Below, piece by piece: positions 1,468 to 58,723 of a DNA stretch of 64,000 bases. The stretch comes from a virus: IMG/VR virus record IMGVR_UViG_3300045974_000132, positions 155,740 to 219,739 of that record; one strand, 5' to 3'. The translations under genes were made by a program, and so were the position numbers. Position 1 is the first letter of the stretch. Each line of letters begins with the position of its first letter. The notes under the pieces were generated by a model that did no database searches, was not told where the DNA came from, and worked only from the letters and a program-made list of their open reading frames with translations.

Positions 1468-1521
1468 CCGCTCACCTATTTTGGTAATAAGGACTCCGTC
1501 ATTATCAGGAGAGTGAGCGGC
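1467..1521 (-). other. Hairpin next to the tmRNA coding piece
   Basis: Nine-base perfect inverted repeat, GCCGCTCAC (1467-1475) with GTGAGCGGC (1513-1521). It sits just beyond the predicted 3' end of the tmRNA coding piece and may be a processing stem or terminator-like structure for the pre-tmRNA. There is no U-run after it. Confidence 0.45.
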
Positions 1522-1845
1522 TTAACAAACCAAAGTCTGTTAGTGACCCCATCCGTTTAGGTGCTGTTAGGCAGCCTTCCGGAAAGACGCATCATTCGCG
1601 GCAATTACAAGTTTAGCCCGGTTTAACGAGAGTACAATGCTCGGATCGTTCTTTATCAACTACTCATGCCCAATCGAAACCAGGTCAGGCCCATCAGGAT
1701 CGTTCTATGTATCACCCACCCCGGTGACCTCAGCCTTGCGGTAGGACCTTTCGGCACACAGAACGATTTTGGTGGACCTGGGGAGAATCGAACTCCCGTC
1801 TTGAACACTTTTATTTCAAAAGTCTCATAAGCAAAGTTGTTCCGG
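1522..1845 (-). ncRNA. ssrA: tmRNA, circularly permuted (two-piece) gene
   Basis: On the minus strand the acceptor piece comes first: T-arm GGGAG-TTCGATT-CTCCC, then CAGGTCC-A-CCA ending at 1770. About 77 nt later the coding piece starts at 1692 with GGGCCTG, pairing with CAGGTCC over seven bases (one G-U), followed by GACCTGGTTTCGA, a typical tmRNA 5' end. The tag frame at 1570-1599 reads ANDASFRKAA then TAA. CATGAG-TA-GTTG downstream of the acceptor pairs with CAAC-TTTG-CTTATG before the T-arm, as helix P2. The intervening segment is closed by an 11-bp stem (ATCGTTCTGTG / CATAGAACGAT). This is the order of two-piece tmRNAs. It should rescue stalled ribosomes or retag proteins. Outer ends are approximate. 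The tag lacks the usual LAA terminus. Confidence 0.88.
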
Positions 1846-1907
1846 TAGCTAATCGGCTTTACTTACATACGATCATATTCCTTAACACGCCAATGATTAC
1901 GTGTTAG

Positions 1908-2716: not shown

Positions 2717-2791
2717 TGGTTGAGGATGACGGGATCGAACCGACGACCCTCTGCTTGCAAGCAGAGGCTCTCCCAACTGAGCTAATCCCCA
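2717..2791 (-). tRNA. tRNA-Ala (UGC) with irregular anticodon loop
   Basis: Acceptor TGGGGAT / ATCCTCA includes the G3-U70 pair that specifies alanine; discriminator A and CCA are encoded. D-arm GCTC...GAGC and the TTCGATC T-loop are present. The anticodon region is a perfect 18-nt palindrome, CTCTGC-TTGCAA-GCAGAG, so the loop has six or eight bases rather than seven. Compared with ordinary tRNA-Ala one U appears missing. It may be non-functional or decode unusually. The T-stem has one T-T mismatch. Confidence 0.8.
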
Positions 2792-10185: not shown

Positions 10186-10564
10186 CCACATAAATTTTCT
10201 ATAGAGCCTTAAATTAGAAAGCTTATGTGGTAAGACTCAGAAGTGCTTAACACCGTCTGAGTCAAACCGGTGTAGCTTGCGTTGTGCCAAGCAGCAATTC
10301 TCGATGGGATAGTATTGAGAAAAGCCGCATTGACTGCACCTTGCAAACTACTGATTATTCTCGCCTAAAGCGCATGGTCATCACCCTTATATAATGTTCT
10401 ATATGTATGCTTGTATATAGAACCCTACTTAGATTTAAGAACTATATTAGACGTAACATTAAGTTACCCTCCAAAAGAGTTCGCTATGAGCGTAGCGGGA
10501 GCTTCTGTTCACAAGCTTGCCGGCCCGACTCTCACGGGCAGTACCTAGGGCGAAGAGTTAAAGA
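10186..10564. other. Non-coding structured region (about 380 bp)
   Basis: Holds CCACATAA / TTATGTGG (10186-10230), then GACTCAGA / TCTGAGTC (10234-10263), then on the minus strand GTTCTATAT / ATATAGAAC near 10400. Two tiny minus-strand frames with good ribosome-binding sites (5 and 8 codons) are present but are too short to call. Probably one or more structured RNAs. Confidence 0.45.
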
Positions 10565-33381: not shown

Positions 33382-33684
33382 TTATTCGTTCCTCTCCATA
33401 TTAATCTTAGAAGCCATATTAATCTTAGAAGCCATATTATTCCAAAATGCAGCATTGGCGCTATGACAAGATTCAACATGAGCATCTACGTAAGATAATG
33501 CCCATTCTGGATTTGATCTCCACTTACCTAGAGTATCAGGTATTTTCCAAGTGCTAGGAGCAGGTGCGACGCCAATACCGAATCGAAGTTTTCTAAGAGC
33601 CTCCTCCAAAAGACTTTTACTATGTTCGGTCCTTTTTATAGCTGCTATAAAAGCTTCGTATTCAGCCCTTGTTAATTGTTGCAT
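33382..33684 (-). CDS. Hypothetical protein with a MASKIN repeat (100 aa)
   Basis: ATG 33684, AAGGAG. The C-terminus has MASKIN twice, encoded by a tandem 18-bp duplication at 33403-33440, a recent slippage. Helical; unknown. Confidence 0.6.
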   Translation of the reverse strand: MQQLTRAEYEAFIAAIKRTEHSKSLLEEALRKLRFGIGVAPAPSTWKIPDTLGKWRSNPEWALSYVDAHVESCHSANAAFWNNMASKINMASKINMERNE

Positions 33685-33764
33685 AATTGCTCCTTGTTCG
33701 GTAGTTGCATCAACCTAAGCCACTTTCACAATGACTTAGGGTAAGCATAACTACAGGTTTTAAT

Positions 33765-34004
33765 TCAGCACTCGAAGAAGCGGTCTTCCTCAGAGTATAT
33801 GTAGCCGCTACAGTCATCATCGGCTTCCATATCCTCGTCGTCGCGTTCACATTCAATGCTATCTTCGTCTTCGAGAGGTTTATTCATAAGAGCCTCGACG
33901 GTAGTATTGGTCACGCCACCGTTTGCTTCGTAGATAACTACCTTTTTGCCTTTGACGAAAGCGCGAGGAAGTTTATTGAATACATGGTCTGCAGGAATAG
34001 CCAT
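33765..34004 (-). CDS. Acidic hypothetical protein (79 aa)
   Basis: ATG 34004, AAGGAG. Basic first third, then a run rich in Asp and Glu with three Cys. Unknown. Confidence 0.6.
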   Translation of the reverse strand: MAIPADHVFNKLPRAFVKGKKVVIYEANGGVTNTTVEALMNKPLEDEDSIECERDDEDMEADDDCSGYIYSEEDRFFEC

Positions 34005-34036
34005 TTCAGTTCTCCTTGAGAAAAGCTTTTACGAAT

Positions 34037-34522
34037 TTAATCGGGTTCGTGCAACTGGCTACCGTGTTCAGGATCCATCCAGCAATACTGATCGTCAGCC
34101 TTGATCCTCTTCGTATTCAGAACCCATACGTCATCTTGCCGCTGCATGATCGGCTTACTGCAATGCTTGCACTTATCGAAGCGCGGCCGCTTATCAGGAT
34201 AGGCACTAACAATCCAGTGTTTGCCGTTCGCATCACGGAACTCGATTTCACTGAAGTGGTAGTCACTGACGGTCAGCAGTTCAGTAATTGCTTCGGTCAG
34301 ATTGGACTTCGGCTCACCGCTGAACTTATAGTTGCGCCCGTCATCGCCCTCTTCTTCAGGCGACTCATACTTACCTGCGACGACGACAAACTTTTCTTTC
34401 AGTAGAGCATCAAGTCGTGCCTTCAAAATCGCAGCACACGAATGGGTGCCACTAAGGCCGCGCTTCCATTGAAAACCGCAAGTGCTGCATGTACACATTT
34501 CAGATTCAACTGCGTTGTTCAT
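34037..34522 (-). CDS. Protein with two zinc-ribbon ends (161 aa)
   Basis: ATG 34522, AAAGGAGAAACAAA leader. CTCSTCGFQW...HSC at the N-terminus and CKHCSKPI...C-W at the C-terminus are Cys-x2-Cys knuckles. The central part is alpha/beta. Function unknown. Confidence 0.65.
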   Translation of the reverse strand: MNNAVESEMCTCSTCGFQWKRGLSGTHSCAAILKARLDALLKEKFVVVAGKYESPEEEGDDGRNYKFSGEPKSNLTEAITELLTVSDYHFSEIEFRDANGKHWIVSAYPDKRPRFDKCKHCSKPIMQRQDDVWVLNTKRIKADDQYCWMDPEHGSQLHEPD

Positions 34523-34802
34523 TTTGTTTCTCCTTTGTGGCCTGCATCAAGTGCATCAATTCAGGCTTGCCGTAAAAGATGCGAACGAAGGGGCCTTCAG
34601 CATTGATAATCGCAATGCACGTAACACGCGCAAACCACTGCCCAGGTTTCTTGTCACGCTCTACGTACATACGACTTAGAGGATGCTGTGTCAACAACAC
34701 CCGATGACAATTCATGAAAGCACGACTGACAGGATGAAGCAGGGCAACTGCAAAGCATGTCACCCACACTATTAGCAAACTATAAGGCAGTATGTCAAGC
34801 AT
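34506..34802 (-). CDS. Membrane-anchored small protein (98 aa)
   Basis: ATG 34802, GAGGTG. Residues 3-24 are a transmembrane helix; the remainder is basic and soluble, presumably cytoplasmic. Unknown. Confidence 0.6.
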   Translation of the reverse strand: MLDILPYSLLIVWVTCFAVALLHPVSRAFMNCHRVLLTQHPLSRMYVERDKKPGQWFARVTCIAIINAEGPFVRIFYGKPELMHLMQATKEKQNEQRS

Positions 34803-34803
34803 G

Positions 34804-35055
34804 TTACACCTCGTTTTTGTTTAAATCAGCGGTATCAAATGTTTTCCGCTTGTCTGAGAGGTTCTTCAGATGTTCATCCCAATCATCAATAGAAAGCTTA
34901 AACATCGCTTTCGCGGGCAGATCATACATTTGAAGTAGAGCTTTCACCTGAAGATCATCACACTGCAAGGCTAGCAGTAGCTCAACATCAGAAACAAGAC
35001 CTTGCGCGTGTTGTTTGATTACTTCCAGCATTTCTGCGAATGTACGTTGAGCCAT
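34804..35055 (-). CDS. Hypothetical protein (83 aa)
   Basis: ATG 35055; GAG lies 12 bases upstream. Helical acidic protein; unknown. Confidence 0.55.
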   Translation of the reverse strand: MAQRTFAEMLEVIKQHAQGLVSDVELLLALQCDDLQVKALLQMYDLPAKAMFKLSIDDWDEHLKNLSDKRKTFDTADLNKNEV

Positions 35056-35057
35056 GA

Positions 35058-35516
35058 TTACTTGCACTCCCGGTAATGAGTGATAGTTGAGTCACCTTGC
35101 AACAACGTCCAATCCCAATCACTGGGATTCTGATTGTAGCGTATGCAGTCAACACCCGGCCACTCTTCTTCGTAACAGTTGAGTTTTATATCAACCCGCT
35201 TTGCATCAGGCTTAACGCCCGTGTTTGATACCCAAGCCGACTTGTCGTCGAGAGTAAGGAAGCGTTGTAGCTCTGCATTCCACTTGTTATTGCACGAACG
35301 TCCTTCAGGCAAAGGGAACATCAGAGCGCCTTGAACGATCTGCATCGTGCAGTTGTCGCCCAAGTCAGTAATACGAAGTTCGTAAAACTTTTCGATGTTC
35401 TCAACCATGAAGGCCATCAACGCAGCTTCACTATCAAGACGAACAGGCTTGTCGTAAGTCTGTTCAAAGGTCGTGCAATAACCCAACATCGGTTCCCACA
35501 CTTCAGTGTTGCTCAT
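35058..35516 (-). CDS. Hypothetical protein (152 aa)
   Basis: ATG 35516 with GGGAGATCGAA. Acidic, with several Trp and Cys; no motif recognised. Confidence 0.62.
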   Translation of the reverse strand: MSNTEVWEPMLGYCTTFEQTYDKPVRLDSEAALMAFMVENIEKFYELRITDLGDNCTMQIVQGALMFPLPEGRSCNNKWNAELQRFLTLDDKSAWVSNTGVKPDAKRVDIKLNCYEEEWPGVDCIRYNQNPSDWDWTLLQGDSTITHYRECK

Positions 35517-35641
35517 TTCGATCTCCCTTTCCAGCAAGTTTTGTGAAAGAAGTTTGTCGGAGTACCGCGCATATCGACAAACCAAATACCATTGCGCTTG
35601 AGCGCAGCCCGAAGAATCTCAGGACTTACTTTTGTTATCAT
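35513..35641 (-). CDS. Small basic protein (42 aa)
   Basis: ATG 35641 has GGAGCAGATA upstream, inside the end of the alpha-CTD-like gene, and its stop overlaps the next start. Basic, ends CWKGRSK. Unknown. Confidence 0.5.
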   Translation of the reverse strand: MITKVSPEILRAALKRNGIWFVDMRGTPTNFFHKTCWKGRSK

Positions 35642-36038
35642 TATCTGCTCCGGGGAGGCTGCCACCCTCATAAAGAACATACCCGTGTGCTTCAAGAACT
35701 TCCGTCAACTCTTGAAGATGCCTTCTACCGAAGTGAGGTAACCTCAAAATACGCTTACTACCCCACTCCAAAACTTTTACAACAGTGTCAATCTTGTGGT
35801 GCAGCAGAAGGTTTGTCGTGCGCACCGACATGTCCAAATCAAGCACTGTTGGAGATTGGCTTGTCTGCGGTTGAATCTCCAAAACCATTTTGCCCTGATC
35901 GAAGAAGTACGACAAAACTTCGTACTTGCCAGAAGGCCCATGAATAACAATATCAGCGTTCATGGCTTCAGCAACTTGATAAACAGGTGTGTTGGGAGAG
36001 CTATCACCCTTGAACACAACAAAATCAATCGGCTTCAT
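35619..36038 (-). CDS. RNA polymerase alpha-CTD-like protein
   Basis: 139 aa from ATG 36038 (GGAGAAGAAA). Residues 66-120 read LDLDMSVRTTNLLLHHKIDT...ILRLPHFGRRHLQELTEVLEAHGY, closely following bacterial RpoA C-terminal domains (L-x-L-S-V-R-x-x-N-C-L...L-L-x-x-P-N-x-G-x-x-S-L-x-E). Arg73, Asn76 and Gly104 align with the DNA-contacting R265, N268 and G296 of E. coli alpha; H107 replaces S299. The N-terminal 65 residues are phage-specific, not an alpha-NTD. It could compete for UP elements or activators and redirect host transcription (inference). Confidence 0.82.
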   Translation of the reverse strand: MKPIDFVVFKGDSSPNTPVYQVAEAMNADIVIHGPSGKYEVLSYFFDQGKMVLEIQPQTSQSPTVLDLDMSVRTTNLLLHHKIDTVVKVLEWGSKRILRLPHFGRRHLQELTEVLEAHGYVLYEGGSLPGADNDNKSKS

Positions 36039-36051
36039 TTTCTTCTCCAAA

Positions 36052-36279
36052 TCAATCATTTAGCACAACAAGAGAGATACAGCCAGCAAGTTGTATATAC
36101 ATTGCTTTTTGCTCATTGACAGTAACGCGCACAAAGTTTTTCTTGTTGCCTATATCCGTTTCAAATTCTTTCGGGAAAAAGCCCGGTGCAAGGCCAAGAG
36201 CGCAAGCATGGACAGTGTATTCAAAGCCGCAGTGGCTTACAGGAAACTCAACATCCTCTAAGCCAATAAACAGTCCCAT
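36052..36279 (-). CDS. Hypothetical protein (75 aa)
   Basis: ATG 36279, GAGGAG. Compact beta-rich protein with two Cys; unknown. Confidence 0.6.
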   Translation of the reverse strand: MGLFIGLEDVEFPVSHCGFEYTVHACALGLAPGFFPKEFETDIGNKKNFVRVTVNEQKAMYIQLAGCISLVVLND

Positions 36280-36283
36280 GATG

Positions 36284-36622
36284 TTACTCCTCAGACTCTA
36301 ACTCAAAACGTTCAATAGCGTACCAGCCAACACCTATCGGCAACCCAAGTTCTTTACGGCGACGCGAAAGTTGCCCGAGCGTGTAAAGCCTAATGTGCGG
36401 CTTCTTGTCGCAGCAGTACAGGCACACCAAATGTTCTTCTACGCAAACATTCACAAGCTTGCGAAAGTTGAAAATGTTGCTGACGTACAACCAGTTATTG
36501 ATACCTTTGGTCTTGAACTCGACAGCGAGAATGACCGCACGTTTACCGTTACGAGTAACCTGACTTTTAAATAGGCTTGTATAAAACGCATTCAAGGCGC
36601 GCTTCAGATTTTTCGAGTTCAT
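36284..36622 (-). CDS. Hypothetical basic protein (112 aa)
   Basis: ATG 36622, GGAGAAGAA. Basic alpha/beta protein with a CLYCCDKK cluster. Unknown. Confidence 0.62.
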   Translation of the reverse strand: MNSKNLKRALNAFYTSLFKSQVTRNGKRAVILAVEFKTKGINNWLYVSNIFNFRKLVNVCVEEHLVCLYCCDKKPHIRLYTLGQLSRRRKELGLPIGVGWYAIERFELESEE

Positions 36623-36640
36623 GTTCTTCTCCACACGTTG

Positions 36641-36690
36641 GTTAACTTTAATCAAGCAACCTGCAAGAAATCACAAGTTGCTTTGTTAAA
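36641..36690 (-). promoter_or_regulatory. Leader hairpin flanked by TTTAACA and TGATTAAA
   Basis: AAGCAACTTG / CAGGTTGCTT stem upstream of the 36622 start, third member of the leader-hairpin family. Confidence 0.4.
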
Positions 36691-36692
36691 GG

Positions 36693-36989
36693 TTAGTTAA
36701 CGGTACTTTGTTCACGCCTCCAACCGGACCCTGGTGCAACTACACCGCAATGCTCAGGCTTAAACAGCACTTGGAAAACAATACGTCCATTTTCCAAAAC
36801 CCGATACCCGACAATACAACCGCTGAAGAAAGAGGGTGATGACTTAGTGCGGTGTGCATAAAGAGTAGCCCCGATCAAACGTTGAGCTTTCTTTTTAGAC
36901 ACCACCCAGGCACCACACTCGCAAAGCAGAGTAGTCCAGTTGATTGTAACAATGCTGCTACCCTTGACGACGAAACTGATTGAAGTCAT
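36693..36989 (-). CDS. Hypothetical protein (98 aa)
   Basis: ATG 36989, AGGAGAAACAAA leader. Beta-rich with three Cys; unknown. Confidence 0.6.
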   Translation of the reverse strand: MTSISFVVKGSSIVTINWTTLLCECGAWVVSKKKAQRLIGATLYAHRTKSSPSFFSGCIVGYRVLENGRIVFQVLFKPEHCGVVAPGSGWRREQSTVN

Positions 36990-37042
36990 TTTGTTTCTCC
37001 TAAAAGATTAGACTGCGAAAGGAAGCATAATATTCCTGCTCC

Positions 37043-37090
37043 CGGTTCTCTATGGTAGAATTGAACTACCGTGGCCTAATACCTAGAGAA
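37043..37090 (-). pseudogene. Mini-tRNA remnant (acceptor plus T-arm)
   Basis: TTCTCTA pairs perfectly with TAGAGAA; between them only 13 nt precede a full T-arm, GGTAG-TTCAATT-CTACC. D and anticodon arms are missing, and CGG replaces CCA. Either a tRNA with an internal deletion or a short tRNA-like hairpin in an intergenic leader. Confidence 0.5.
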
Positions 37091-37124
37091 TAACCGTCTT
37101 AGGAGTAACAGCATTGTTAGTGGG

Positions 37125-37445
37125 TTACATCAACTTACTGTACTTGAACATCGGCCCCCAGTCCCACACATACACAGAGTAGGACATCGAGAAGTCGAAG
37201 TCAGTCCCGCGAATCCACTCGCGCTTTTCTTTCAACCACTCTACCAACTGGCCGATGTTATCGAAATATACAACAGTGACCGGTTGCCAAACTTTCGGGA
37301 ACTGACGATCTTGCAACTTGTACTCGACGCCGAATCTCGAACTATTCGGCCAGTGCATCGGGTTTGTTATATCCGATGTGCCTGTATCGTAAGAGGAACA
37401 CAGCGCAGCATGGACAACTTGGGAAGCGACTGTCTGTACGTTCAT
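37125..37445 (-). CDS. Hypothetical protein (106 aa)
   Basis: ATG 37445, AGGAGATCAAA. Aromatic-rich protein ending VYVWDWGPMFKYSKLM. Unknown. Confidence 0.62.
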   Translation of the reverse strand: MNVQTVASQVVHAALCSSYDTGTSDITNPMHWPNSSRFGVEYKLQDRQFPKVWQPVTVVYFDNIGQLVEWLKEKREWIRGTDFDFSMSYSVYVWDWGPMFKYSKLM

Positions 37446-37960
37446 TTTGATCTCCTAGACTTTGTACTACTACCTTCTAGTTCTTGAATACGTGCACCAA
37501 TAATTGAATGGTACTTTATGTTACTTATTATGTGGCTAACAAAACCTAATTGCTCCTGCGTCAAACTCTTGATGAATTCATCAACAGGTATATCTTTACA
37601 GCTTGCCCGATAACGAGGATGCGAAGAAAACTTCTCAGGATTCGCCTTCGCTTCAGCTAACAACCTGATTACGTCTTCCTTAGTTACCTCACAGTAGAAA
37701 GAGTCTTTGAAAAAATCAGCAGTAGGTTCTGAACCATTCTGCGCTTTCAAAGTCTTCAGCACCTTATTCAAAGGTGTTCCCAGGTCTAGTGCTGGGTGGA
37801 TCAAACCGACTGGTGAGATTTCACACTTCCAACCTCCGTATCGGGTCTTCCCTCTTTCAACCCAAGTTGCAGTAACAAGAAATACACGATGCTCAGGGCA
37901 ACCGCTACGGACAGCTTTCTTAGTGTGCATGAACATTTTGGGTGCAGTTGTAACTGACAT
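37442..37960 (-). CDS. Hypothetical protein (172 aa), first gene of the early block
   Basis: ATG 37960, AAGGAGATCAAA. Basic start, helical C-terminal half with basic SSTKSRRSK end. Closest to the strong promoter at 38048-38076, so probably among the first and most expressed phage proteins. No family recognised. Confidence 0.65.
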   Translation of the reverse strand: MSVTTAPKMFMHTKKAVRSGCPEHRVFLVTATWVERGKTRYGGWKCEISPVGLIHPALDLGTPLNKVLKTLKAQNGSEPTADFFKDSFYCEVTKEDVIRLLAEAKANPEKFSSHPRYRASCKDIPVDEFIKSLTQEQLGFVSHIISNIKYHSIIGARIQELEGSSTKSRRSK

Positions 37961-38076: not shown

Positions 38077-38126
38077 ACCGTCGATTTTACGCGCTTTTCG
38101 AGAGCTTTTGAGCAAAGCATGGACGT

Positions 38127-38158: not shown

Positions 38159-40474
38159 CTACATCATACTGTTTCCAACGCGCACTAATTCAAGCTCCAT
38201 ATTCTTCCGAGTAACATTTACGCATTCGTCAACCCACGGAAGATGCTTCTTATTACTGACCAGAACTGCCGTCGTCTTGACCCCTGGAGGTTTCTTGGCC
38301 TTAGTAGCTTCACTGATAGTCCCATATCCATCTGACACAAGTAGGCCTTGAGCATTGAGCCACCCATACTTCAAGCAGACATCAAAGAAGGCTTGAAGCG
38401 CATCATCGAAGTCAGTGCCACCACCGCTCGGTGTAGATAGAGCTTGAGCCAATTCAGCTAGAGTTGGAACGCGCTGCCCTTTCTCCCAAACGTGTATGCT
38501 ATCGACGCCTCCTGAGAACTTGATTAAGGCAATGCCTCGCTTAGACAGGTAGAGCTTATGAATCATTGACAGACAGAAGCCTGCGGCCATTTCATAATAA
38601 GAGCCACCCATAGAGCCTGAACAATCTAGCATCAGTACAATAGGACCACGACGCGGGTCTAGGTCTGTGTATTGAAGCAAATTGCCGTTAGCTAAATCGA
38701 CTAAGAATGACAGTCGCGCAAAGTCACTACCCAATCGGCCTAGTTCGGAAGCAGGAAGTCTAGTTAGGTCTGTACCGAACGTAAGAGTACGATCAATCAT
38801 ACCTTCATCATTCGGTTTGAACGAAGGCTTGACAATAAGCTTAGCCCCGAAGTCATGGGCTGACTTCAGAATAGCTTTGAAGATTTTGGGGTTGGAAGCA
38901 AGCGTATTAAGAGTTACAAGCTTACCGCCGCTGCCTCTACCTGTCCCTTGAGAAGGGGAATCTTCATCAGGCATATCTCCGCCACCTAAAGCATCAACGT
39001 CAATATCTTCATCGTCGTTAGGAGCAGCGTCTGATCCAGCAGACTGTTTTCCTTTTGAAGGTTTTTCAGTATCCTCTGAACCATCCTCTGTTTCGCTATC
39101 GGTAGTTTCAGAGTTCGCATCGTCTTCTGAATTTTCAAAGTCTTCCTGATCGTCACTGTCCTGTTCACCCTTCTGCGATTTAGGTAGCTTTTCTTCGGCA
39201 TCTGCTTCGTCATTCGCATCATCAGGTGCAAAGTCTTTAGCGAAGGTTTTAACATTGGCATACAGGTCTTCAATGTCAGCTAAGAACTCGCCCGCGTTTT
39301 TGAGAATGAAGCGAATCAGCTTTATCAGTTCGTGCCCACGATCATACCTAGGTGTATCAGATACTAGGTTTATCGCAGATGATAGACAACCTGCTTTAGG
39401 ATCAAAGCGTTTAACACGAACAGAGGGAATTGCTTTAAGCAAGTCAGGAAGCTTAGGTAGAGCTTCCAAAGCAGATTGCTTTTCCCGTAGTCGTTTAATA
39501 CGGTGAGGAATACGATCAATCGAATCCTGAAGCTCACTCTGGGCAGACAAAGAATACTTACGCTTTTTACGAAGCGTCACCAACTTCTGCTTAAGGTCGA
39601 TTCTGCGCTCTTTGGCTCTAGAGATCAACCTGTCAATGTAGATGATCCTCTTCTCTACAATCTTGTTGGCTTCATTCAGGGTGTTGACTAAATGAACAGC
39701 CGCAAACATTGCAAACTCAGGGTCGTCAAAAGCATCTATCTTGGTAAGAGTAGGCACTATCGAAAGTGTTTGGGTGTGCGATAGAACTCGATCAAAGCTT
39801 GAGTGAATCCACCTAGGAGACATTTGATAGTGGCGCACCCACAGATTACGCACGACTACATCGGGATTGATATTGGGCAGATTCTGAAACTTGAATTCAG
39901 GGTAGTGCTTCCGAAGTTCTGAATAGTAAGCATCCTCATACTTGAACTTCAAAATCTCAGGATGCAAAGCCTTAATGCCTAACGCATCACGCAACTGTTT
40001 AGCGATCTTGATAACGATAGGGTGACGCATGTGACTGTTAAAATGCTGAGGTAGCTTCGACGGTAGAAGGGCACAGATTTGCTCAATCGAAAGAGCGTCA
40101 TACTTAATAGAACGCAAGCCCTTGAACTTCACTGCCTGCACATCATACCCAAAGAACTCTCCTAGGTATTGATTGATCTTGTAGTCAGCAGCCGTATTCA
40201 CAGTGTTGGCTCTATACACATGGAGGATTGATTCATCCTCAACTACTTCGTGCATAATCTCATGTGCTACATACACTTCCAGATTGAAGGTATCTTCATC
40301 AACGCATTTGTCAGTCAGCTTAATCCCTACAGCATCAATACAAGCTACAGGAAAGCCGCAAGTTTTATGATCGACTATCTCAACAGGTAGGAACAGCACA
40401 TCAGGCCCGAACTTTTGTGCCAGGCGCTGAAGTGCTGCTTCTACTGAACGCATCCTACGTTCATACGATTTCAT
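38159..40474 (-). CDS. Metallopeptidase-like plus VWA domain protein (DUF2201-type)
   Basis: 771 aa from ATG 40474 (AGGGC). The N-terminal domain has HEIMH at residues 71-75 (HExxH zinc motif). A helical middle and a long Asp/Glu/Ser-rich linker (about 415-510) follow. The C-terminal VWA domain has DCSGSMGGS around 615, SGGGTDFDDAL and VSDGYG, a complete metal-ion-dependent adhesion site. Domain order matches DUF2201 proteins, which pair with MoxR ATPases as here (9-nt gap). Such pairs act as chaperone-like machines for protein or metal-centre assembly; the phage target is unknown. Confidence 0.88.
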   Translation of the reverse strand: MKSYERRMRSVEAALQRLAQKFGPDVLFLPVEIVDHKTCGFPVACIDAVGIKLTDKCVDEDTFNLEVYVAHEIMHEVVEDESILHVYRANTVNTAADYKINQYLGEFFGYDVQAVKFKGLRSIKYDALSIEQICALLPSKLPQHFNSHMRHPIVIKIAKQLRDALGIKALHPEILKFKYEDAYYSELRKHYPEFKFQNLPNINPDVVVRNLWVRHYQMSPRWIHSSFDRVLSHTQTLSIVPTLTKIDAFDDPEFAMFAAVHLVNTLNEANKIVEKRIIYIDRLISRAKERRIDLKQKLVTLRKKRKYSLSAQSELQDSIDRIPHRIKRLREKQSALEALPKLPDLLKAIPSVRVKRFDPKAGCLSSAINLVSDTPRYDRGHELIKLIRFILKNAGEFLADIEDLYANVKTFAKDFAPDDANDEADAEEKLPKSQKGEQDSDDQEDFENSEDDANSETTDSETEDGSEDTEKPSKGKQSAGSDAAPNDDEDIDVDALGGGDMPDEDSPSQGTGRGSGGKLVTLNTLASNPKIFKAILKSAHDFGAKLIVKPSFKPNDEGMIDRTLTFGTDLTRLPASELGRLGSDFARLSFLVDLANGNLLQYTDLDPRRGPIVLMLDCSGSMGGSYYEMAAGFCLSMIHKLYLSKRGIALIKFSGGVDSIHVWEKGQRVPTLAELAQALSTPSGGGTDFDDALQAFFDVCLKYGWLNAQGLLVSDGYGTISEATKAKKPPGVKTTAVLVSNKKHLPWVDECVNVTRKNMELELVRVGNSMM

Positions 40475-40483
40475 TGCAATGCC

Positions 40484-41950
40484 CTATTCTGTTTTGGCAA
40501 GGGAAGAAACTTCAAGAGTGATACCTGCTTTGATGAACGTCTGCTTCAGGGTAGTTAGCTTGTGGTCGCTATACCAATAATTGGCCTTACGCTTGTGACG
40601 GAAGCCAAATGCACGAAGCTCCTTGCTAGACCATGACATGGTTGAAGACTGAGAAGCTTTGATCTGAATCCCTGCCCCTACATGCACACGGATGATACGG
40701 AACACTTTGCGCTCTTTGATGATATGAGCGAAAGACATACCGATAGACTTGATTTCAGCAGCAGCTTGCCTAGCATACCGACTACTAAGCTTATTGACCT
40801 CTGCATACAATTTCTTCAATTCCGAAAGCTTGCTGCGAAGGTCACCGCCTTGTCCAATAGTCTCACGTAGGGCATGAGCGCGTTCCAAGTAAGTCGAAAT
40901 CTCAGCGGTGTCGCCCGACGTATTGGAAAACACAATAGACTGAACCTTACTGACTTGCGCAGGCTCATTCCAGAAGATGTTTGCAAGCACCTCCAAGTCT
41001 TTGTTGATAATCTCAGAACGACCGTCGAGAATAGCAGCAGCTTGCATAACACGGAAGGACTTGATAAATCGACGATCACTGATTTTGATATTCAGAGCAT
41101 ACTCAACCTGACGGCGAATACGCATAGCCATATCACGCAGCTTATCCGGTAGCGTTACAGCACGGGTAGTCTTACGAAGTTGCTCTACCTCAGGCGAAGT
41201 AAGATAGTGAGTTTCAATCAAGTCTGGGATGTCGAGAGACTTAGCAATCAGCTTGCGGACATTCTCTTCGTCCTTCAGGTAGGCTACATTGAAGCGTAAC
41301 AGAAAGCGATCATACAGTGCTTTCAGAATAGGGTCATTAGGCAGTTCGTTTGATGCTGCGAAAGTTGCCTTGACCTTACACTTGATAATCCCATTATCCC
41401 CGTCACGGAACAGATGCTCATTGATGATCCAGAGCAAAGGATTTAGGACAGTAGCATTTGATTTGAAGATTTCGTCGAAGAACAGAATCTCACAATCGGG
41501 GGCATACCCAATGTATTTTGTTTGTTGTCTGCCCTGAGCTAGAGCCGGGATGTCCGTCGGCCCAAAAATCTGATCAGGTTTTACAGTCTCACTCATGAGG
41601 ATGTCAAAGTTCGACAAGCCTAGTAGGGAAGACGCTGTTTGAATATGGAATGTCTTTGCAGTACCTACGTCACCGAAGAACAGAGCATTCGAGCCAGATA
41701 GAATACACAGTAGGATACCGTCTGTTTCATCGTGCCGTTCATACACGAACTCATTCAAGACAGAACGAACCTTCTGCAATTTCTCAAACAAAGGGTTGTC
41801 GTACTTGACAGGGACTTCCTGGACAGCTTCTTCAAAAGCAGCAGCTTCCTTAACAGCTTTCTCAGCACGTTCCGCCTTAGTCGGTAGCGGCTTAGAGGGC
41901 CGTAACGATGGACGGTTGGAACTACGCAAAAGAGGTTTAGGTAGAGGCAT
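40484..41950 (-). CDS. MoxR-family AAA+ ATPase
   Basis: 488 aa from ATG 41950. Walker A GDVGTAKT at residues 93-100, Walker B CEILFFDEIF about 145, sensor 1 ATFAASNELP about 195 and an arginine-finger region (LYDRFLLRF) follow MoxR/RavA. It is co-transcribed with the VWA partner. The first 40 residues are a basic Pro/Arg-rich tail. Expected to hydrolyse ATP as a hexamer and remodel a target presented by the VWA protein. Confidence 0.92.
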   Translation of the reverse strand: MPLPKPLLRSSNRPSLRPSKPLPTKAERAEKAVKEAAAFEEAVQEVPVKYDNPLFEKLQKVRSVLNEFVYERHDETDGILLCILSGSNALFFGDVGTAKTFHIQTASSLLGLSNFDILMSETVKPDQIFGPTDIPALAQGRQQTKYIGYAPDCEILFFDEIFKSNATVLNPLLWIINEHLFRDGDNGIIKCKVKATFAASNELPNDPILKALYDRFLLRFNVAYLKDEENVRKLIAKSLDIPDLIETHYLTSPEVEQLRKTTRAVTLPDKLRDMAMRIRRQVEYALNIKISDRRFIKSFRVMQAAAILDGRSEIINKDLEVLANIFWNEPAQVSKVQSIVFSNTSGDTAEISTYLERAHALRETIGQGGDLRSKLSELKKLYAEVNKLSSRYARQAAAEIKSIGMSFAHIIKERKVFRIIRVHVGAGIQIKASQSSTMSWSSKELRAFGFRHKRKANYWYSDHKLTTLKQTFIKAGITLEVSSLAKTE

Positions 41951-45468: not shown

Positions 45469-46581
45469 TTATTTACAGTTACGTGTAGGTTGCACTGAAG
45501 CAGCCGCTACTAAAGCACTTTCAACACCTTTAGTCGGCATGAAGCCTAACTGTTTCTTCATAGATCGAAGCATTCTGATCTTTTCCTTTCTAGATATATA
45601 CTCGTCAAGGTCGAGATACAAACGAGCAATACCTAGATTGTCTGCACTTTTTATAAGATAGAGAAGAGTGGCAGACTCTTGGTCATCCTCTATCTGTCGA
45701 TCAACACCCTGACAACCTACTAAGAAGTGCTTTAAGTCTATAGCACCTTCATCTTCGTTGTCACTCATTACGCTATCCAGGCTTACACTGAAGTTTACCT
45801 GAGACGCTTTAGTACCTTGTACATTCCTCTTTTGCAACTGAGGCATTGTATAAGCGATACCGTACTCATGCCCATAGTTGGCATTTGAATACGTTTGAGC
45901 ATTTAGAATCCAATAGTTTATGTAACTGGTGAGAGCTCCTTTACTACTATCGTATTTATCAATAGCTTTAGTAATTGCCGCCATTAAGCTTTGATAAACG
46001 TCTTTGAAGTCAAAGTTTCCAGTCTTTTGTTTGCAGAACGCATGGGCTTGCTTGTAACCATGCTTTAGATACTGCTCCACAATGTTATTTCTAAAGGTAT
46101 ACGCGAGTTCAACGTAGTGCCTACATATGTTCAATGTAGAAAACAAGTGGTCGCGTGTAAATCCTACGGTACGTTCTATAGCCTGCAACTTAAGGTCTAG
46201 GGTGGTTCGCTCCATGTGCTTGGAGCAAGTAAGGTATTTGGTATATAGATCCGTGTAATCTTCTGTTTCCGAAAGGAAGTTCACAAGGAAACTATATACA
46301 AAGCTGCGTTCAATCTTTGCTTTAGATAAAAGGTCTATCTTCCGATCAAGATCAGTAGTGGTAAGTACATTGCACAGACAGACAATGAATACTTCCCGCT
46401 CTAGGGCAGAGATTTTTCTTTTCTTGTTTGTTGCAGCTACACCTAATAGATGGGCTACTTGTATATCAAATACCTGACTATGGCGAATAATGGGTTCAAG
46501 ACCCTTATAGATAAGGAAATCAAGAGCTTCCTGTATCTGCCCACCGGTCAGGTTTGAAGTGTCAATGGGCTTTTTATCCAT
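45469..46581 (-). CDS. Sigma-70-like transcription factor (late sigma)
   Basis: 370 aa from ATG 46581. Residues about 190-250, FDFKDVYQSLMAAITKAIDKYDSSKGALTSYINYWILNAQ, follow sigma region 2 (D-x-x-Q-x-x-x-x-G-L-x-x-A-I-x-K-F-D-P-x-x-G-x-x-F-x-T-Y-A-x-x-W-I). Regions 3 and 4 are not clear. T4 gp55 is a comparably reduced sigma directing late promoters. It lies among genes preceded by ACTGTAAATA, so it is the best candidate reader of that element (inference). Confidence 0.78.
   Translation of the reverse strand: MDKKPIDTSNLTGGQIQEALDFLIYKGLEPIIRHSQVFDIQVAHLLGVAATNKKRKISALEREVFIVCLCNVLTTTDLDRKIDLLSKAKIERSFVYSFLVNFLSETEDYTDLYTKYLTCSKHMERTTLDLKLQAIERTVGFTRDHLFSTLNICRHYVELAYTFRNNIVEQYLKHGYKQAHAFCKQKTGNFDFKDVYQSLMAAITKAIDKYDSSKGALTSYINYWILNAQTYSNANYGHEYGIAYTMPQLQKRNVQGTKASQVNFSVSLDSVMSDNEDEGAIDLKHFLVGCQGVDRQIEDDQESATLLYLIKSADNLGIARLYLDLDEYISRKEKIRMLRSMKKQLGFMPTKGVESALVAAASVQPTRNCK
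45474..45481 (-). promoter_or_regulatory. ACTGTAAATA promoter element
   Basis: AACTGTAAATAATTAATG on the minus strand, directly after the sigma gene stop and 40 nt before the single-stranded-DNA-binding gene start. Confidence 0.52.
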
Positions 46582-56233: not shown

Positions 56234-58723
56234 ATGACTTTTATCGAGTCTATCAAAGATGTATATGAGGTACCAGAAGGCATGCCTCTAGCGGTATTTC
56301 AGAATAAGTACAGCCGAGTCAAATACCTCGAAGACAACCCGAACTATGATGCAACTGTAATAGGTAGCAACCCGAAACGCCCTGTATATCAAACATGGGA
56401 AGAGCGTATCACAGAAGTTGTCGAAGGTAACTTCACTCTCGATCCGCGTTTCGGACCAAAGACGCCAGAAAACTGTGCTTCATTCTTTGATGATCTGTAT
56501 GCACCCTGGGACAATCTAGGTACTAAAGAAGAATTCTCAGCACGTAAAGAATTCCGTGATACACTGCGCTTATCTAAGCAAGGTGTAATGCCTTACTCCG
56601 GTCGACATTTGCAGCACGGTGATAGAGTTCAGTATGCAAAGACAGGTGAGTTATTTACCAACTGTTCTACTGCAATGTTCTCATGGACATTGTTCTATCT
56701 TCTACTCAAAGGCAGCGGTGTAGGTCGTGATTACTCTTCAGATATTTGCTGGGTTGACTGGGAGTACATGCCTGAGTGCCGTTTCGTACTCGACGGGCCA
56801 GATCAATGGGGTAACGGCGGTCATCCGGACTATGAGCCGTGGATTGAAAGTCTGCGTTCAGCAAGACACAAGTACGACAGTGAAGGTGAGAAGGTTCGTT
56901 GGTTTGATGTAGAAGACAGCGCAGAAGGCTGGGTCAAGATGATTATGATTCTTGAGACAGCTGCCTTCCATAAGAACAACAAAGAGCATCTGTTTGTCTT
57001 TAACTTTACGCCAGTTCGGAGTAAAGGCACGCCAATAAAAGGTCAGCAAGATAGACCAGCTTCAGGACCAGTACCGTTGATTGAAGCAATGATTAAGATA
57101 ATGACCATCAAAGGGGCAGGATTTAAACCTTGGAAGCAAGCATTATTCATTGATGACTATCTAGCAGCATGCGTTGCAGTAGGTGGAATTCGGCGGGCTG
57201 CACGAATGTCTACTAAGTATTGGAAAGACCGTGATGCTCTGGAATTTGCTGACATTAAACGTGAAGGCTTCTTGAAGAGTGCTAATAATAGCTTGCTGGT
57301 AGACGCTGAATTTTGGGAGCTTGTGCGCAACCCAACAAACCGCGAATCATGGGCTGTACATGCGCGCCGTGTGTTTGCAGCTGCAACGGAAGCTGCGTAT
57401 CATGATGGTACAGGGGAACCTGGCTTCATCAACGTCGATCAACTTACGTGGAGCGATGAAGGTATTGATGAAATCACGGTGGACAACTACATAGATGTTC
57501 ATTACGATAAGAATGTTCTTCGTGTGCACAAGAAGACGAAGGAAATGATTGGCTACATGCTGGACAAAGCCAAGCATAAGAAGTACAAGGTGATCGTGAA
57601 TCCTTGTGCAGAAATCCCAATTGCGGTTTGGGGTGCTTACTGTACGATCGGTGATATCTGCGGTACTTATGCACGAACGCTTGAAGAATTCAAGTATGCT
57701 TGCTGGTTGATGGCTCGTGCCCTGATGCGTGTAAACCTGATGCAGTATATGTACAGTGCGGAAGTAAAACGCACTATGCGTATCGGCGTAGGTATGATTG
57801 GCATCTTCGAGTTTGCTTGGAATCACTTCCAAATCAATCTGCACGAAATCCTGCTGTCTGAATTGCCGCCAGATCATCCGAAGGTGCTGGCTGCTATCGA
57901 AGCGGAAATAGTCCAGACAATGGGAGAAGATGGCTCTACGTTGGATAGTTACAACGTATATGAGCGGAGCTTGCAGTACGCCAAGTTCATCGAAGAGTGT
58001 CGTGAAACAGTTGAACAATCGGCTCGTCAATATGCTGCTGAAATCGGTGTCAATGTTCCGCACACGTTTATTACATTGAAGCCCTCAGGCACTGCATCTA
58101 AAGCACTAAATAGTACCGAAGCTGCAAACCCACCCTCAAACAATTTCTATCTGCGTAATAACCAGTATCCGTTTGATGATCCTCAGTATCTTGAACTACG
58201 TCGTCGCGGATATCCTTGGCAAGACATAAGTCACTCGTATGCAGGTCATCACATCGTTGGTTTTCCAACCAAGCAGCAAATATCGGACATCATGGGTGAC
58301 AAGGTTGTTGTATCAGCAGAACTTACGCCTGAAGATCAGTATGAGTGGTTGCGTTGGCTTGAACGTCATTGGTTTGGTGGCAAAGGCCGTAATGGTCAAG
58401 TATCATTCACAATGAAATACTACCCAGATCAGGTATCATTCAAAGAGTTTCAACAGTTGTTAATCGAGCACCAAAGCACAGTTAAGTGTTGCTCATGGAT
58501 GCAGATCATGGATATGAGTAAGTTCCCATATCAGCCTGAGCAGCCAATTACTGAAAAGCAATACTATGATTACCTAGAAGGCATTGATCGTGTTCAGATT
58601 GAAAGCTATGATGAATCAGAACTACAGTGTCCCGGTGGCTTCTGCCCAATCGAGAAAGATCAGTTGGTCTTTGCAGACGGTAGTAATGTGACAGATGCTG
58701 ATCTTCAAGGTGCTTCAAACTAA
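56234..58723 (+). CDS. nrdJ: Adenosylcobalamin-dependent (class II) ribonucleotide reductase
   Basis: 829 aa from ATG 56234 (AAAGG). FTNCSTAMFSWTLFYLLLKGSGVGRDYS, NPCAEI (thiyl-radical Cys, Asn and Glu), LKPSGTASKALN and the C-terminal redox pair CPGGFC match the monomeric Lactobacillus-type RTPR. It makes dNTPs independently of oxygen but needs host B12. Located with dCTP deaminase and primase in the plus-strand replication operon. Confidence 0.93.
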   Translation: MTFIESIKDVYEVPEGMPLAVFQNKYSRVKYLEDNPNYDATVIGSNPKRPVYQTWEERITEVVEGNFTLDPRFGPKTPENCASFFDDLYAPWDNLGTKEEFSARKEFRDTLRLSKQGVMPYSGRHLQHGDRVQYAKTGELFTNCSTAMFSWTLFYLLLKGSGVGRDYSSDICWVDWEYMPECRFVLDGPDQWGNGGHPDYEPWIESLRSARHKYDSEGEKVRWFDVEDSAEGWVKMIMILETAAFHKNNKEHLFVFNFTPVRSKGTPIKGQQDRPASGPVPLIEAMIKIMTIKGAGFKPWKQALFIDDYLAACVAVGGIRRAARMSTKYWKDRDALEFADIKREGFLKSANNSLLVDAEFWELVRNPTNRESWAVHARRVFAAATEAAYHDGTGEPGFINVDQLTWSDEGIDEITVDNYIDVHYDKNVLRVHKKTKEMIGYMLDKAKHKKYKVIVNPCAEIPIAVWGAYCTIGDICGTYARTLEEFKYACWLMARALMRVNLMQYMYSAEVKRTMRIGVGMIGIFEFAWNHFQINLHEILLSELPPDHPKVLAAIEAEIVQTMGEDGSTLDSYNVYERSLQYAKFIEECRETVEQSARQYAAEIGVNVPHTFITLKPSGTASKALNSTEAANPPSNNFYLRNNQYPFDDPQYLELRRRGYPWQDISHSYAGHHIVGFPTKQQISDIMGDKVVVSAELTPEDQYEWLRWLERHWFGGKGRNGQVSFTMKYYPDQVSFKEFQQLLIEHQSTVKCCSWMQIMDMSKFPYQPEQPITEKQYYDYLEGIDRVQIESYDESELQCPGGFCPIEKDQLVFADGSNVTDADLQGASN

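Follow-up and report, generated by a model that had tools for sequence, protein, structure and literature searches.

Profile comparisons and structure prediction confirm that a small gene of a large phage encodes a genuine C-terminal domain of the RNA polymerase (RNAP) alpha subunit (alpha-CTD), detached from the assembly domain of that subunit. The gene is located on the minus strand at positions 35619–36038 of the analysed stretch of DNA (64,000 nucleotides, hereafter the window), which belongs to a virus record of 286,393 bases. The first ATG of the open reading frame, at 36059, would yield a product of 146 aa (35619–36059, minus strand). However, the internal ATG at 36038 is preceded by a well-spaced Shine-Dalgarno sequence (GGAG), which the first ATG lacks; this makes the shorter gene model the better one; the product most likely consists of 139 aa. 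Residues of the phage protein are numbered here according to the 146-aa form, and the surface residues according to E. coli alpha.

The alpha-CTD itself (35670–35861, minus strand; residues 67–130) was delimited by Pfam, AlphaFold2 and VIA-align. The Pfam model RNA_pol_A_CTD (PF03118) matches residues 67–123 with an E-value of 6.5e-8 and 32.6 bits, compared to the cut-off of 23.8, and a hidden Markov model built from 23 other viral copies, with the window sequence left out, scores the protein at 59.7 bits (the best of 2,000 shuffled sequences reached 6.8). Apart from one weak unrelated match, all PDB sequence matches are RNAP alpha-CTDs, the best being that of Caulobacter crescentus (9zum), which provides only a hint of an alphaproteobacterial host. 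A structure model from the single sequence was useless (pLDDT 39), whereas the model built with 21 viral rows is good for the CTD only, with pLDDT of 92–98 over residues 71–130. The helix-hairpin-helix, on which the first-pass annotation had let its proposal of an alpha-CTD mimic depend, is present in this predicted fold, which aligns with the E. coli alpha-CTD over 63 residues (VIA-align Z 10.8, rmsd 1.3 Å). The top Foldseek matches in the PDB are likewise alpha-CTDs, including those in complexes with Spx, CAP and other activators. Full-length rpoA models align to the CTD alone (TIGR02027, 31.3 bits versus a cut-off of 227.8), and the alpha N-terminal assembly domain (PF01193) was matched neither in this gene nor elsewhere in the phage genome, so that the absence of that domain, also anticipated in the annotation, is borne out together with the identity of the CTD.

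Compared with bacterial alpha subunits (Caulobacter 9zum; E. coli 3n97 and 1lb2), the phage protein shares the fold, the helix-hairpin-helix and residues R265, N268, G296 and E302, but lacks the N-terminal domain, differs at C269, S299 and in the '287' patch, and carries a novel N-terminal part. The latter (~59 residues; 35862–36038, minus strand) belongs to no recognized family and is modelled by AlphaFold2 with low confidence (pLDDT below 50 over residues 1–35, falling to about 40 or lower in the first 20), with beta strands predicted near its end. Searches with this part alone yielded only chance-level matches among phages at E≤10, nothing better than E 1.3 in the PDB and no relative among the fetched viral alpha-CTD loci; searches of phages, viral contigs and bacterial genomes with the whole protein likewise retrieved no close relative.

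The roles of individual alpha-CTD residues are well established for E. coli alpha. Among the seven residues of the DNA-binding '265' determinant, R265, N268, G296 and E302 are identical in the phage protein and K298 is represented by arginine, whereas C269 and S299 are replaced by leucine and histidine, respectively. The Arg and Asn which had been assigned to the DNA-binding surface are R265 and N268, both in place, and much of that surface is kept. Only the R265 and G296 columns are invariant across the 24 viral sequences, and Ser299 is retained in 21 of the 23 other copies. Given that two of the seven DNA-binding residues are changed, DNA binding by the phage protein may be weak or altered. 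A single isolated alpha-CTD binds DNA weakly in any case, and the protein would thus need either high abundance or a multimerizing N-terminus. The sigma-contacting residues D259 and E261 are both represented by aspartate. By contrast, the CRP-contacting '287' patch (T285, E286, V287 and E288) reads G, S, K and R, which makes binding of a CRP-like activator less likely; most other viral copies retain S/T285 and E288.

The protein is not as singular as initially implied, although the presence of an alpha-CTD was correctly recognized: several phages have annotated proteins of this kind, which are also common in viral metagenomes. A profile scan of viral contigs recovered 35 loci with short open reading frames (106–252 aa), each encoding one alpha-CTD with varied attached parts, and the window gene, a short phage frame with one alpha-CTD and no alpha N-terminal domain, conforms to the same pattern. 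Host contamination as the source of these genes can be dismissed, because PF01193 is missing from all 16 records tested; full rpoA genes among purported phage records were set aside. By eye, some of the attached parts are helix-turn-helix-like (L044 and L056) or cysteine-rich (L033), and in one locus (L016) the alpha-CTD is found inside a protein annotated as a pyrophosphatase. Annotated lone alpha-CTDs are encoded by Bacillus phage Goe8, Erythrobacter phage L02, Rhodococcus phage Finch and uncultured Caudovirales. The proteins of Finch (240 aa) and Erythrobacter phage vB_EliS-L02 (ORF 40; PMC9127768) are likewise products of small open reading frames with matches spanning about 60–80 residues, the size of the CTD, but with appended parts different from that of the window protein. 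Lone alpha-CTDs also occur in gp005 of Bacillus phage vB_BmeM-Goe8 (210 aa, annotated as 'RNA polymerase subunit alpha'), gp26 of Microbacterium phage Mazun (141 aa) and gp23 of Ruegeria phage vB_RpoS-V16 (288 aa), which have other N- or C-terminal parts, the Ruegeria domain being joined to a part with a pyrophosphatase annotation; PF03118 scores of these three proteins are 44–78 bits. Goe8 has two copies of the gene with identical scores, one near each genome end (L017, 1959–2591, and the opposite end of NC_048797.1), which fits a terminal repeat and genes for early host takeover. Both the domain and the notion of a phage protein with a lone alpha-CTD are thus already represented in the databases; the present analysis adds this particular member, the promoter context of its gene and an initial view of the class among viral contigs. 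We found no experimental study of a phage stand-alone alpha-CTD in the open-licence literature searched.

The virus is a PaBG/Lu11-like jumbo phage. Its other transcription gene encodes a sigma factor of 370 aa (45469–46581, minus strand; phrog_17569, E 3.8e-95; Sigma70_r2), and the sigma factor–SSB–UvsX gene order is syntenic with that of PaBG, Lu11, Yoloswag, HRDY3 and their relatives. Searches for RNAP beta and alpha N-terminal domains gave no match in this phage, its relative G001, PaBG or Lu11, indicating that the phage most likely relies on the host polymerase, in part together with a sigma factor of its own, as reported for such phages in reviews (PMC7824862, PMC13282480); the sigma factor of PaBG is treated in PMC7412058. 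The motif AACTGTAAATA is enriched upstream of genes genome-wide, with copies in the window near 16.4, 19.2, 29.1, 45.5 and 62.6 kb. Its core is that of the annotated middle/late promoter of Lu11, and in both phages it precedes the SSB gene (here at 45470–45480, minus strand), where it is a probable promoter read by the phage sigma factor. A second motif, [AT]CTAATTTA, is also enriched upstream of genes throughout the genome (e.g. at window positions 10218, 14293 and 14754, minus strand).

The window contains several further features. A permuted tmRNA gene (1476–1862, minus strand; Rfam RF04321, 89.3 bits) has the predicted tag AANDASFRKAA, and a tRNA gene identified by ARAGORN (2717–2791, minus strand) has what looks like a four-base anticodon (tgca). 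A hemerythrin-domain protein (PF01814) is encoded at 916–1368 on the minus strand. A MoxR-type AAA ATPase (bpMoxR) adjoins a large VWA-domain protein (38159–41950, minus strand), resembling a chaperone-like pair. The ribonucleotide reductase (56234–58723, plus strand) is closest, at 35–38% identity, to enzymes of Rhizobium and Tunturiibacter phages, one of which is annotated as class II.

Among related phages, none of seven PaBG-type genomes yielded a PF03118 match over the cut-off. The nearest relative that we found, G001, encodes an alpha-CTD-like protein (25.4 bits) with a different N-terminus, in which N268, K298, S299 and E302 have been lost and which displays a PGVG hairpin as well as a weak match to HHH_5. 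Its gene is part of an early-type cluster and follows a perfect sigma-70 promoter of its own, and the surrounding region has several genes in common with the 22–28 kb region of the window. Orthology between the two proteins was considered but gains no support from BLASTP, which produces no alignment, although both genes have an early-type setting.

In the window, the alpha-CTD gene is part of a cluster of small, mostly tightly spaced genes (33382–37960, minus strand), probably one or more early operons as suggested by the spacing and start sites; a Pfam scan of nine members of the cluster retrieved no family over its cut-off. At the start of the cluster, 87 bases upstream of its first gene, lies a sigma-70 promoter with a TG extension (TTGACA-17-TATAAT; 38076–38048, minus strand), which matches the consensus at 12 of 12 positions. 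Transcription from this promoter would have to extend to approximately the sixth gene to reach that of the alpha-CTD, which it presumably does, and early expression, in line with the early setting originally ascribed to the gene, appears probable from this layout.

Three A4 tracts spaced by 10–11 bp (38106–38109, 38096–38099 and 38085–38088, minus strand) are found upstream of the promoter, in an arrangement resembling an UP element. The genome contains five 12/12 sigma-70 sites, which, together with one 11/12 site of the same type, constitute the six strongest sites compared here. AAA tracts at these sites share the registers −68 to −65, −57 to −54 and −47 to −44 (taking the start of TTGACA as −35), and none of 20,000 within-sequence shuffles produced registers 10–11 bp apart as good as these. 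All three tracts are present at the 38076 site, and one of the six sites has none. Outside the tracts, the sequences resemble each other at about the chance level, which renders simple duplication an unlikely origin of the pattern. By contrast, ten sites with the phage-sigma motif show no AAA-tract register (p 0.27). The distal register corresponds to the AAA of the UP-element consensus. This evidence comprises six promoters and was noticed post hoc, and the tracts may simply serve the host polymerase, which A tracts would help anyway.

How might such a protein act? The reading that we tentatively place ahead of the others, while considering it somewhat less than an even prospect, is that of an early DNA-binding regulator which competes with the host alpha-CTD at A-tract promoters. 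The small early protein, a detached alpha-CTD behind a short novel N-terminal part, would bind the narrow minor groove of A tracts via contacts of the Arg265/Asn268/Arg298 type, and its acidic residues at 259 and 261 might contact sigma region 4. Being unattached to the assembly platform of the polymerase, it would compete with the host alpha-CTD at UP-like promoters, including strong host promoters and the early promoters of the phage, among them that of its own gene. Lowered transcription from host-type promoters would then ease the hand-over to phage-sigma promoters, whose motif is devoid of tracts. This competition is supported by the retention of R265, N268, G296 and E302 along with the K298R replacement, the invariance of R265 and G296, the position of the gene behind a perfect sigma-70 promoter which three phased A4 tracts precede, the registers seen at the sigma-70-type sites but not at those with the phage-sigma motif, and the presence of a phage sigma factor without alpha N-terminal or beta domains of RNAP. 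A further argument comes from phage T4, in which Alt and ModA ADP-ribosylate Arg265 of alpha (PMC2988021) and thus target the same RNAP surface during host take-over, although T4 chemically modifies the host subunit whereas the window phage supplies a separate domain, so that the parallel is one of analogy only. The case is weakened by the C269L and S299H changes, the low affinity of single CTDs, the small post hoc promoter set and the absence of phased A tracts from the two perfect sigma-70 promoters examined in G001. The complete scenario, in which the phage protein displaces the host alpha-CTD from the phased A tracts of host-type early promoters, including that of its own gene, and thereby brings about an early-to-middle switch to the phage sigma factor, is rather improbable as a whole, with perhaps one chance in a few of being correct in full.

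The retained acidic residues at 259/261 and the phage sigma factor would also fit a co-activator acting in trans: the N-terminal part, possibly through its predicted beta-rich segment, would dock on the host RNAP or on the sigma factor of the phage, while the alpha-CTD would add a DNA or sigma contact which raises the activity of chosen phage promoters. We regard this as rather unlikely but next in rank, given that the N-terminus has neither relatives nor a confident fold, that no A-tract register accompanies the phage-sigma motif and that Pfam recognizes no Sigma70 region 4, with which the 261 determinant usually interacts, in the phage sigma factor. The drift of the G001 protein towards a PGVG hairpin and an HHH_5-like sequence, and the appearance of the N-terminal helix-hairpin-helix of Dmc1/RAD51 among VIA-align matches at Z of about 8, could instead point to a former alpha-CTD now serving as a generic DNA-binding protein outside transcription, for instance in a nucleoid-like, repair or replication role. 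Such a fate is improbable for the window copy, which keeps alpha-CTD-specific residues and has alpha-CTDs as its best matches throughout. Slightly less probable still is a decoy which soaks up host transcription factors, or another host protein acting on the alpha-CTD, rather than binding promoter DNA: activators and Spx-type factors commonly dock on the domain, as the Foldseek matches to Spx and CAP complexes illustrate, but the determinant used by CRP is lost here while most other viral copies keep its S/T285 and E288.

Many bacterial promoters have their strength set by the alpha-CTD, on which many activators also dock. The widespread occurrence of phage genes providing this domain alone, with varied attached parts, suggests a common candidate way to steer the host polymerase. 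The class is directly testable, since the interface has been mapped to individual residues and a matching promoter architecture is found upstream of the window gene itself. If competition with the host alpha-CTD does take place, the bacterial polymerase would be controlled through a detached copy of a domain that it already possesses.
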